Source: Bacilli bacterium (GTDB lineage Bacteria > Bacillota_I > Bacilli_A > RF39 > UBA660). Taken from it: a stretch of DNA of 64,000 bases. Positions 8,984 to 62,001 of this stretch are shown here, piece by piece (within the stretch, counting starts at the first letter, position 1; each line of letters opens with the position of its first letter). Position numbers and translations under genes: made by a program. The stretch lies in the NCBI GenBank assembly GCA_017450205.1, contig JAFSVF010000009.1:1-64000 (forward strand), read 5' to 3'. Below the pieces are notes generated by a model. That model searched no databases. It saw only the letters and a list, made by a program, of their open reading frames with translations, and had not been told where the DNA came from.

Positions 8984-10180
8984 ATGGGAGATACATTAAA
9001 TGTTAATAATTACAACTACTTATTTCCACTTAGATTGATTAGAATTGTTAGAAATCAAAGTGTTCCTGATTTTGCAATATCTTTAGGTGCATCTAGGGAT
9101 TTTTTATGGTCTTTAGAAGCAGGTAGAATACTTCCATCTGATTCATTTTTAAGTGAGAATATTGGTAATTTAAATATTAGTTATGAAGATTATAAAATAT
9201 TTGAAAATGAAATAGCAAAGATTAAAAAACTAAAAGTAAATAATTCTACTAAATATCAAATGGCTTTGTTTAAAACATTAGCGCTTGTTTATTCTGATAT
9301 AAAAATAAATAATAATAGTAATAATGTAAAAACAGATGAAATAAATGCATATCAAAATGTTAATGATTCTAATCAATTACTTCCATTTAAATTGATTAGA
9401 ACTGTTAGAAATCAAAGTATTTCTGGTTTTGCAACATCTTTAAGAACATCTAAGAGTTTTATATGGAGGATAGAAAGAGGTATAAAAGTTCCTTCTGATT
9501 TATTTTTAAGCGAGAATATTGGTTATTTAAATATTAGTTATGAAGATTATAAAATATTTGAAAATGAAATAGCAAATATTAATAAATTAAAAGTAGATAA
9601 TTCTACTAAATATCAAATGGCTTTATTTAAAGCATTAGTACTTGTTTATCCGGAATTAAATAGTGAAAATAAAAGTAATGATTTAAGGAATTATAAAATA
9701 AAAGCTAATAGAATGGATAAATCAATCTACTCAAGTTTTTTAGGAGATGATAGTGAAATTTTTTTTGTTGCTGAAAAGTGTAGTTATGATATGCTTATAA
9801 GAATATTTGGTACTATGGAAGAAGAAAGTATTTTAGATAATATCTTTTTAGATAATTGTATTATAAGTAGTAATTATTTATATGCTGTATACAATAGAAT
9901 TGTTAAGTTTCCAATAGATTTAGTTAATGCAAAGAAAGATATGCCTGGTTTAATTTTTGATCCTTTTTATTTAAGTGATGCATTAGTTGAAGGCTATACT
10001 TTTGGTATTGTTAATAGAATAATTAATTATTGTAAAAATGAAAATATACCATATAATTTTGAAGATAAAATACTTATGGTTGAAGATGAAGTAGTAGCTG
10101 TTAACAATGAATTACTTGTTAGTGTATTTGAAATTAATAAGAAATTAAGCGGAATAAAAAGAAGAAATAAAGTAAAATAA
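8984..10180 (+). CDS. Putative regulator with duplicated XRE-type HTH domain
   Basis: 398 residues. Two consecutive copies of a segment of about 92 residues (13-104 and 132-223) each begin with an XRE-like helix-turn-helix pattern: LRLIRIVRNQSV then FLWSLEAGRILPSD, and FKLIRTVRNQSI then FIWRIERGIKVPSD. Each ends with an almost identical helical module (ISYEDYKIFENEIA, STKYQMALFK). Residues 240-398 form a third domain that I do not recognise. Start: ATG at 8984 after AGAGGAAAAGGG; the frame is open further upstream but lacks a ribosome site there. DNA-binding is inferred from the HTH pattern. It lies just before the AAA+ operon and could regulate it. A terminator separates the two. Confidence 0.6.
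   Translation: MGDTLNVNNYNYLFPLRLIRIVRNQSVPDFAISLGASRDFLWSLEAGRILPSDSFLSENIGNLNISYEDYKIFENEIAKIKKLKVNNSTKYQMALFKTLALVYSDIKINNNSNNVKTDEINAYQNVNDSNQLLPFKLIRTVRNQSISGFATSLRTSKSFIWRIERGIKVPSDLFLSENIGYLNISYEDYKIFENEIANINKLKVDNSTKYQMALFKALVLVYPELNSENKSNDLRNYKIKANRMDKSIYSSFLGDDSEIFFVAEKCSYDMLIRIFGTMEEESILDNIFLDNCIISSNYLYAVYNRIVKFPIDLVNAKKDMPGLIFDPFYLSDALVEGYTFGIVNRIINYCKNENIPYNFEDKILMVEDEVVAVNNELLVSVFEINKKLSGIKRRNKVK
9020..9652 (+). repeat. Tandem intragenic duplication (two units)
   Basis: Unit 1 is about 9020-9295 and unit 2 about 9377-9652, offset by 357 bases (119 codons). The second half of each unit (about 9161-9290 versus 9518-9647) is close to identical at the DNA level. The HTH-coding first half has diverged more. 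Confidence 0.85.
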
Positions 10181-58438: not shown

Positions 58439-58465
58439 TTAGCACTAACTATTGACGAGTGCTAA
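58439..58465. promoter_or_regulatory. CIRCE element (HrcA operator)
   Basis: TTAGCACTA, nine bases, GAGTGCTAA: the 9-9-9 CIRCE arrangement with a single mismatch in the left half (final A for C). It is bound by HrcA and released on heat shock. Confidence 0.95.
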
Positions 58466-58517: not shown

Positions 58518-59522
58518 ATGCAAGAAAGACAAGAGGCTATTTTAAGAGAAATTGTTGAGTCTTATATAAAAACATTTGAACCAGTTCCATCAAAAGCTTT
58601 AGTCGAAAAGTTTAATTGTAGTTCTGCTACTATTAGAAATGATATGTCTAGTCTTGAAGAAATGGGTTTACTTGAAAAAGAACATACATCAAGTGGAAGA
58701 ATTCCTTCAGAAAAAGGATATAAGTATTATGTAGATCACTTAATGAAACCTAAAGATATTACAGGTGAAGATGTTCTTAAACTTCAAACTATACTTAATA
58801 ATAATAATTTAGTTATTAGTGATGCTGTTGAGAAATGCATGGAAATTATTAGTGATATTACACATTATACTACTGTAGTAATTGGACCTAATAAAAGTAA
58901 TAATACATTAAAACAAATTAATATTATTCCACTTGATATTAAACAAGATGGTGATTCAACAGTAGTTGCAGTACTTGTTACTAATCAAGGTGTAGTAGAA
59001 AATAAACAAATAGTAGTTTCTAATGAAATAAACATGAATGAACTTACTAAAACTTGTGAGATTATTAATAAAGCACTTGTAGGAACTCCTTTAGATAAGG
59101 TAATTGAAAGACTTGAACTTGAAATTAAACCTAAGATTAGAGATGTTGTTAAGCAATATGAACAAATTTATAATTTCTTCTCAAATGCATTTCAAGATTT
59201 TGCAATGGAAAAGACTGATGTAACATTTGGTGGTAAAACAAATTTACTAGATTTTAAAGAATATGAAGAACCTAGCAAATTAAAAGAAATGGTTGCAAAA
59301 TTAGAAGATATTGATTTAGTAAAAAGAATAGATACTAAAGATAAAGAAGTTAAGGTTTATATTGGTGAAGAAAATGAGTTTGATCCAGATACAACAATAA
59401 TTAAAACTCATTATGAAGCTGATGGAAATGAAGGAACAATAGCTATTATTGGACCAAAAAGAATGGAATATGAAAAAGTTGTTACACTTTTAAATTTCCT
59501 TAAAGATTATATAGAAAAATAG
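58518..59522 (+). CDS. hrcA: Heat-inducible repressor HrcA
   Basis: 334 residues. The N-terminal winged helix (MQERQEAILREIVESYIKTF; SSATIRNDMSSLEEMGLLEK; HTSSGRIPSEKGYKYYVDHL) is characteristic, followed by the GAF-like dimerisation domain. It binds the CIRCE element directly upstream and is the first gene of the operon, the standard class I heat-shock arrangement of Firmicutes. Confidence 0.97.
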   Translation: MQERQEAILREIVESYIKTFEPVPSKALVEKFNCSSATIRNDMSSLEEMGLLEKEHTSSGRIPSEKGYKYYVDHLMKPKDITGEDVLKLQTILNNNNLVISDAVEKCMEIISDITHYTTVVIGPNKSNNTLKQINIIPLDIKQDGDSTVVAVLVTNQGVVENKQIVVSNEINMNELTKTCEIINKALVGTPLDKVIERLELEIKPKIRDVVKQYEQIYNFFSNAFQDFAMEKTDVTFGGKTNLLDFKEYEEPSKLKEMVAKLEDIDLVKRIDTKDKEVKVYIGEENEFDPDTTIIKTHYEADGNEGTIAIIGPKRMEYEKVVTLLNFLKDYIEK

Positions 59523-59530
59523 GTGAATAT

Positions 59531-60163
59531 ATGAAACATAAAGATAAAGAAGAAAAATGCTGTTGTGGCGAAAACTGTAATTGTGAAGAAAATTGTAATT
59601 GCGATGAAACTTGCACATGTGGTTGTAAGAATGGTGAAGAATGCACTTGTGGAGATACTTGCAATTGTGGTGAAGAATGTGAATGCCATAAAGAAAAATC
59701 ACATCATAGCAATTCACATCATGAAAAAATAGAAAAGCTTGAAAATGAATTAAAAGAAGAAAAAGAAAAAAGTTTAAGAATTCAAGCTGAAATGATGAAC
59801 TTCAAAAGAAGACAAGAAGAAACGCTTGCGACTTATAAAAAATATGCTAACGAATCTATATTAAAAGAATTACTTTTAATCAAGGATAACTTTGAAAGAG
59901 GTTTATCATTAGAAAATGATGAAAATAAAGAAATATTCAAAGGATTTAGAATGATTTATCAAAATATTGATAAAATTCTAGAAGAAAATCAGGTTGTTGA
60001 AATCAATGCAATTGATGTTGAATTTGATCCTGCTGTTCATCAAGCTGTTATGACTGAACATAAAGATGGTGTTAAAGCTGGAATGGTAATTGATTGTTTA
60101 CAAAAAGGATATAAATATAAAGATAGAGTACTTAGACCTGCCATGGTTAAGGTATCTGAATAA
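59531..60163 (+). CDS. grpE: GrpE with cysteine-rich metallothionein-like head
   Basis: 210 residues. The GrpE part (about 65-210) has the long coiled coil ([20 protein letters not shown]), [22 protein letters not shown] and the C-terminal [17 protein letters not shown]. It is the nucleotide exchange factor of DnaK. In front lies an extra domain: residues 10-52 contain 16 cysteines, mostly as C-x-C pairs (positions 10, 11, 12, 16, 18, 22, 24, 28, 30, 32, 38, 40, 44, 46, 50, 52), then a His-rich stretch ([12 protein letters not shown]). The head resembles a metallothionein. The start follows TAGGTGA and the Cys-rich part is in frame with GrpE without interruption. Confidence 0.95.
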
Positions 60164-60183: not shown

Positions 60184-62001
60184 ATGGCAAAAATTATAGG
60201 TATTGACTTAGGTACAACTAACTCATGTTGTGCAGTATTAGAAGGAGGTTCTCCAGTAGTTATCGCTAATAGTGATGGAGATAGAACTACACCTTCTGTT
60301 GTAGCATTTAAAAATGGCGATGAAATTGTAGGTATTCAAGCTAAAAGACAAGCTGTTACAAATGCAAATAATACTATTTCATCAATTAAAAGATTAATGG
60401 GTACTAGTGAAAAAGTAAAAGCTGAAGGAAAAGAATATACTCCAGAAGAAATTTCTGCAAAAGTACTTATGAAAATTAAAAAGGATGCTGAAAGTTATTT
60501 AGGTGAACCTGTTACTCATGCAGTAATTACAGTTCCAGCATACTTTAATGATGCTCAAAGACAAGCTACTAAGAATGCAGGTAAAATTGCAGGATTAGAA
60601 GTAGATAGAATTGTTAATGAACCAACTGCTGCTGCATTAGCATATGGTTTAGATAAACAAGATACAGCTCAAACTATTCTTGTTTACGACTTAGGTGGAG
60701 GTACATTCGATGTATCTATCCTTGAACTTGGTGATGGAGTATTTGAAGTTAAATCTACATCTGGTAATAACCATTTAGGTGGTGATGACTTCGATAAGAG
60801 AGTAGCTGACTTTATTACTGAAGAAATTAAGAATCAAACTAATGCTGATGTATCTAAAGATAATATGGCATTACAAAGAATTAAAGATGAAGCTGAAAAA
60901 GCTAAGAAAGCTTTATCAACTCAAACTACTACAACTATTAGCTTACCATTTATTGGTATGGTAGATGGATCTCCAGTTAACTTTGAAATGGATCTTTCTA
61001 GAGCTAAATTTGAATCATTAAATAAAGACCTTTTTGATTCAACATTAGTACAAGTTAAGAATGCACTTAAAGATGCTGGATTAAAGAGTAGTGATATTGA
61101 CCAAGTTGTATTAGTTGGTGGTTCTTCAAGAATTCCATACATTCAAGAACTTGTTAAGAAAGAATTAGGAAAAGAACCAAATAAAGGTGTTAACCCTGAT
61201 GAAGTAGTTGCTATGGGTGCTGCTATTCAAGGTGGTGTATTAACTGGTGAAGTTGCTGACTTAGTATTACTAGATGTAACACCATTATCACTTGGTATTG
61301 AAACTTTAGGAGATGTAATGACAGTATTAATTCCAAGAAATACTACAATTCCTACAAGTAAATCACAAGTATTCTCAACTGCTCAAGATAATCAACCAGC
61401 TGTTGATGTTCATGTATTACAAGGTGAAAGACCAATGGCTTCTGATAATAAGACATTAGGAGAATTCCAATTAACTAACATTCCACCAGCAAGAAGAGGT
61501 GTACCTCAAATTGAAGTTACATTTGATATTGATGCTAATGGTATTGTTAATGTTAAAGCTAAAGATTTAGGAACTGGAAAAGAACAAAAGATTACAATTT
61601 CTAATAATACTAACCTAAGTGATGAAGAAATTGATAAGATGATGAAAGAAGCTGAAGCTAATAAAGAAGCTGATGAAAAGAAGAAAGCATTAGCAGATGC
61701 TAAGAACGAAGCTGAACAAGCAATCTTTGCTGCTGAAGGTGCAATTAGAGACCTTGGTGATAAAGTTAAGGATGATGAAAAGAAAGATGTTGCAGAAAAA
61801 ACTGAAGATTTAAGAAAAGCACTAGCTGAAGAAAATCCATCAGTAGATTCAATTAAAGATAAAACTAAAGCATTACAAGATGTTGCTATGGCTTTAGCTG
61901 GTAGAGTATATGAAGAAGCTTCTAAGAATACTGACAATGGTTCAACTGATTCAACTGAAGATGAAGGACCTGCTGAAGCTGAATTCGTAGATAAAAAGTA
62001 A
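60184..62001 (+). CDS. dnaK: Hsp70 chaperone DnaK
   Basis: 605 residues. ATPase domain: [35 protein letters not shown] and [14 protein letters not shown]. Linker [16 protein letters not shown] leads to the substrate-binding beta-sandwich ([16 protein letters not shown]) and the helical lid, with acidic tail [14 protein letters not shown]. Uses ATP to bind and release unfolded proteins with GrpE and J-proteins; three J-proteins or GrpE partners occur in this window. Start after AAGAAGGAATTAAA. Confidence 0.98.

Follow-up and report, generated by a model that had tools for sequence, protein, structure and literature searches.

Cu(I), cadmium and zinc poison cells partly through protein unfolding, and the metallothioneins of bacteria are represented by SmtA/BmtA in cyanobacteria and pseudomonads and by MymT in mycobacteria. 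Regulators of the ArsR/SmtB type control the known bacterial metallothioneins (PMC8790569), and for the mycobacterial protein the literature describes control by RicR, a member of the CsoR family. A metal-binding tail also occurs on a folding factor, SlyD, in which the disordered tail stores nickel and the nickel inhibits the isomerase (PMC7055735). GrpE, the exchange factor of DnaK, has disordered N-terminal tails of its own, and in E. coli they use a hydrophobic motif to bind the substrate site of DnaK and accelerate the release of substrate (PMC12915176). The GrpE described here has a 16-cysteine array in place of such a tail.

The window, by which we mean the whole 64,000-nt stretch analyzed, comes from a genome in a family of AT-rich, uncultured Bacilli; its close relatives are recorded as metagenome bins under the labels Bacilli or Bacillales, and several of these bins come from animal guts. 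It contains a heat-shock operon with the order CIRCE-hrcA-grpE-dnaK, the arrangement expected of HrcA/CIRCE control. The CIRCE operator, a predicted HrcA site at 58439..58465 on the plus strand, reads TTAGCACTA-N9-GAGTGCTAA with one mismatch to the consensus, and is the only match in the window to the CIRCE pattern, where 0.03 would be expected by chance. It is followed on the same strand by the heat-shock repressor gene hrcA (58518..59522; PF01628, 4.9e-45, with a match also to HrcA_DNA-bdg), by grpE (59531..60163), which codes for 210 residues comprising a cysteine-rich head and a GrpE body, and, as the next gene, by dnaK (60184..62001; PF00012, 4.9e-241), encoding the Hsp70 partner of GrpE. 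Elsewhere in the window, a 357-bp unit occurs twice in tandem at positions 8998-9702, the two copies being 83% alike.

The head spans residues 1-64 (59531..59722, plus strand, as are all features within grpE), and its 16 cysteines, at positions 10, 11, 12, 16, 18, 22, 24, 28, 30, 32, 38, 40, 44, 46, 50 and 52, form an array (residues 10-52; 59558..59686) that is followed by a 12-residue His-rich stretch (residues 53-64; 59687..59722). There are thus 16 cysteines in 43 residues, with no aromatic residue in the head and no hydrophobic residues in the array tail. The body (59723..60163) has the long helix, four-helix part and beta domain of GrpE, and its assignment to the family is carried by PF01025 (residues 54-210, 3.7e-47), by NCBIfam NF010738 (167 bits against a cut-off of 137) and by the AlphaFold model, which is confident for residues 57-210, with pLDDT mostly above 88 in the body, and predicts the apo head to be disordered (residues 1-56, pLDDT below 50). 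The closest solved relative by sequence is PDB 4ani (1.4e-31), which we take to be the GrpE of Geobacillus, and the window protein is like this Firmicutes GrpE in family, operon place and body, and in having a disordered tail that precedes the long helix.

An earlier note made from the DNA alone had described these 16 cysteines and the His-rich stretch as lying in frame with a complete GrpE, and translation together with PF01025 and NF010738 confirms this. It had named a frameshift truly separating the head from GrpE as grounds for giving up the idea, and none is present. A frameshift or wrong start was ruled out by the translation and by a start-codon check: there is no ATG, GTG or TTG codon between Met1 and Met88, so that a GrpE made from any usual start carries the head, and the grpE ribosome site, AGGTGA, overlaps the hrcA stop codon. 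An assembly chimera or error was likewise ruled out, as GrpE in two further species of the genus has a Cys-rich head in the same N-terminal position. The translated gene shows an intact, otherwise ordinary GrpE with a metallothionein-like module joined in frame at its N-terminal tail. No published GrpE-metallothionein fusion, and no Cys-rich or metal-binding extension of GrpE, was found in the part of the literature that our search covered.

With one such head as the query, a search among relatives turned up similar proteins that stand free and are 30-90 residues long; when these are aligned with GrpE heads, the CxC positions are invariant and a CGCQEGKECTC core is common to both. The module signature is CxCxxxCxCGCQ[ED]GK[EP]CTC, and its 13-residue core lies at 59612..59650 in the window. 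The window head matches a profile of the module at 3.9e-14, the head itself being one of the profile's 12 rows. A DNA pattern search for CxCGCxxGxxCTC across all species genomes, from which evident chance reading frames, mostly in GC-rich genomes, were removed by eye, placed the module on many hosts; among the matches listed these are GrpE, HisRS, ferredoxin, an FKBP-type isomerase (L195, from a Bacteroidales bin), SIMPL proteins, CopZ-like HMA proteins (L125, L135, L168 and L208), ArsR, peroxiredoxin, aquaporin, DapF, peptidase C69, methylmalonyl-CoA mutase, PFOR and DUF1292. With the right spacing the motif was matched in 36 genomes, and a control pattern with the spacing one base shorter was matched in none of 386 family genomes. 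The non-cysteine residues Q, E/D, K and E/P are common across hosts at positions that the pattern left free, which points to one homologous module rather than to recurring chance. The GrpE head is one copy of a general, transferable metallothionein-like module that is not specific to GrpE. The module also forms a C-terminal tail on HisRS in many Bacilli bins (L148, L151, L154, L178, L183, L189, L206, L210, L212-L214 and L239), and it lies inside enzymes as an insert between domain parts in DapF (L124 and L200), methylmalonyl-CoA mutase (L169) and PFOR (L198).

The head and its free copies are like SmtA, BmtA and MymT in being a short Cys-rich array that is disordered, or predicted to be so, without metal. 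However, they have a different C-x-C signature and are fused to GrpE and many other proteins, and neither the GrpE heads nor the free copies tested match any Pfam model, including that for prokaryotic metallothioneins, or any NCBIfam model above its cut-off. Matches to Metallothio_5, an insect metallothionein family, lie below the cut-off for the head (0.26) and the free copies (0.06-0.39), and one related protein (L157) passes it. Against PDB sequences the module profile returned nothing beyond weak matches to mammalian metallothioneins (E 0.34), and no description of the module as a named family was found in the portion of the literature searched. The likeness to SlyD of E. coli and H. pylori is that of a folding factor with a disordered, variable, Cys/His-rich tail that binds metal, putatively so for GrpE. 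SlyD differs in being an FKBP isomerase with a C-terminal tail that delivers nickel to hydrogenase; the window protein has no FKBP domain, GrpE being the only domain found above cut-off. SlyD is not known to have the CxCGCQEGKECTC signature in common with the module. The window GrpE is thus not a SlyD, but by analogy it may work in a SlyD-like manner.

The neighbours of the free copies give an indication of what the module may do. The window genome carries one such copy itself, on the minus strand at G000:C18, 85842-85946 (L089), with the sequence MEEKKCNCGPDCKCGCQEGKECTCQDENCKCGCQEEKDK. It begins 10 nt past the stop of a gene for a CsoR-type repressor (PF02583, 2.4e-27), whose Cys-His-Cys pattern aligns with the copper CsoR structures. 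Another free copy also neighbours CsoR (L194), two neighbour cation-efflux genes (L107 and L132), and in genome G002 a single reading frame encodes ArsR and the module, so that the module adjoins regulators of the ArsR and CsoR types, by which known metallothioneins are controlled. In two further species of the genus a module gene is associated with htpG (Hsp90), directly behind it in G010 and two genes behind it in G004 (L086/L306 and L308), so that a link to chaperones exists there in the absence of any fusion. For many free copies no neighbour is metal-related or otherwise telling, and the metal and chaperone links thus recur but are not universal. The head shows two features expected of a functional metallothionein, namely cysteine richness in C-x-C arrays with few aromatics, and kinship with a free protein encoded beside metal regulators. 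The view in the earlier note that such C-x-C arrays bind metal is well supported by analogy, through the free copies beside CsoR, ArsR and cation-efflux genes, the fusions to CopZ-like HMA domains and the conservation of the cysteines, and we consider it very likely on these grounds that the head binds soft metals.

GrpE heads occur in many genera of the family, as well as in two Clostridia (L142 and L192), and the survey of related gut-type genomes that the earlier note had advised did find N-terminal Cys-rich heads on GrpE. Among 57 family and genus genomes whose grpE was read regardless of a head, the tail has at least 6 cysteines in 13 and at least 9 in 11. In a larger set of 119 GrpEs, which is not a fair sample because the genomes beyond the 57 were picked from high-scoring GrpE matches, 48 tails have at least 6 cysteines, the top counts being 23 and 25; cysteine makes up 0.63% of the bodies in this set versus 9.9% of the tails, and the tails have a strong 2- and 6-residue periodicity, for which reasons we dismiss a chance origin of the array. 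Thirteen GrpEs taken from other Bacilli families have no more than 3 cysteines. Poly-His or mixed His/Cys tails replace the Cys array in several species (L018, L253, L256, L264 and L288, in addition to L014 and L263, which are Cys/His-mixed, and L023 and L287, which are nearly pure His, with 24 His and no Cys and with 27 His and 1 Cys, respectively). Head length and cysteine number differ widely between close species, and an 18-bp tandem repeat within the array (59570..59609; Tandem Repeats Finder, 2.2 copies, 86%), encoding a six-residue C-x-C unit, is a likely source of the change in length.

A tree built from the GrpE bodies has at least 19 changes of the trait, a count that is approximate and in which gain and loss are not distinguishable, the tree being a quick one with many weak inner branches. 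The window species and two others group together (SH-aLRT 99), and the clade around them has nine other members, all with Cys-free tails. The module is present in nine of the 11 genomes of the genus; three have the GrpE head (the window genome, G001 and G007) and seven have a free or differently fused module, the window genome having both forms. The earlier note had held that sister genomes lacking the cysteines would refute it, and in part this is so, the GrpE tail being Cys-free in eight of the 11 species; however, six of those eight carry the module elsewhere.

Within genera, DNA alignments of pairs with at least 9 cysteines and similar bodies show that 110 of 127 head Cys codons are kept versus 279 of 455 other codons (p = 2e-8), and that in the window's genus alone the figures are 32/39 and 59/123 (p = 0.0002), these p-values being guides only, as the pairs were picked with the data already in view and some of them have a species in common. 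The Cys codons differ by 40 silent TGT/TGC changes versus 17 losses of cysteine, and retention is lower in mixed Cys/His heads. This shows that the head cysteines are under selection.

The explanation that we favor, with somewhat better than even confidence, is that the head is a heat-shock-induced buffer for soft metals, tethered to DnaK through GrpE. The thiolates, and perhaps the histidines too, would hold soft metal ions, of which Cu(I), Zn(II) and Cd(II) are the likeliest. Given the CIRCE operator of the operon, the level of the head should rise on protein unfolding, as under metal stress, and a high-capacity metal and thiol buffer would be kept close to DnaK and its client proteins. Should GrpE be dimeric as in other bacteria, each DnaK complex would hold two heads with 32 cysteines, placed where ordinary GrpE tails contact the DnaK substrate-binding domain. 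The kinship with free copies, one of them in the window's own genome, the metal-related and htpG neighbours of such copies, the CIRCE operator and the selection on the cysteines all count in favor of a buffer, and a portable buffer would be in keeping with the many unrelated proteins that carry the module. Against it, the identity of the metal is uncertain, with CsoR indicating Cu(I), cation efflux Zn, Co or Cd, and ArsR As or some other metal; many free copies lack a metal-related neighbour; most members of the genus have no head on GrpE; and a pure buffer would have no need of GrpE, which nonetheless often serves as a host in the family.

In a rival reading, which makes the idea of the earlier note specific, the head would be a metal- or redox-gated regulator of Hsp70, with its apo and loaded states altering access of the tail to the DnaK substrate-binding domain, such that substrate release or nucleotide exchange would depend on metal. 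The action of the E. coli tails on substrate release through their hydrophobic motif (PMC12915176), the inhibition of the SlyD isomerase by tail-bound metal (PMC7055735) and the recurrence of GrpE heads in the family and in Clostridia are in keeping with gating, and a hydrophobic pair is present in only 2 of 48 Cys-rich versus 23 of 57 Cys-poor family tails (p = 7e-6), so that the usual tail function has probably been replaced. However, the loss of the pair may merely mirror the composition of the module, head length and cysteine number vary widely between close species, His-only heads occur too, and the many unrelated hosts argue against a GrpE-specific switch; we therefore regard gating as possible but unlikely. 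Slightly more doubtful is its most specific form, in which the module was captured repeatedly, a metal cluster replaces the substrate-mimicking tail and its occupancy by soft metal directly determines how DnaK releases substrate; if true, the Hsp70 cycle would be gated by copper or zinc. Since the module is general on unrelated proteins, a buffer borne by a stress protein is at least as likely as a regulator of GrpE. A thiol or redox device near DnaK with no metal role, serving for oxidant sensing or buffering or for sulfur storage, would suit closely spaced cysteines able to form disulfides, the module copies on a peroxiredoxin and on ferredoxins and PFOR, and lineages whose sources suggest anaerobic gut types; it is improbable, because those neighbours of free copies that can be interpreted are metal regulators and cation exporters, and because heads of the poly-His or Cys/His type take the place of Cys heads in sister species, which fits metals but not thiol chemistry. 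We give least credence to a functionless low-complexity tail grown by slippage: although the 18-bp repeat, the fast change in head length, the disorder predicted by AlphaFold and the 19 or more state changes would all be expected of one, Cys codons are kept far better than their neighbours with mostly silent change, cysteine is rare elsewhere in these GrpEs, and the same motif recurs on a range of unrelated proteins and in free genes that neighbour metal regulators.

The signature CxCGCQ[ED]GK[EP]CTC marks a transferable, predicted metal-binding module that is present in several bacterial phyla and is unnamed in Pfam and NCBIfam as searched, and the sister species that combine a Cys-free GrpE with a free copy of the module provide natural controls for its role on GrpE. 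With a metallothionein-like module on the exchange factor of Hsp70, encoded in a heat-shock operon, metal capture would sit where damaged proteins are repaired, and this suggests that protein-folding repair and the control of toxic metals are physically linked in this family of Bacilli.
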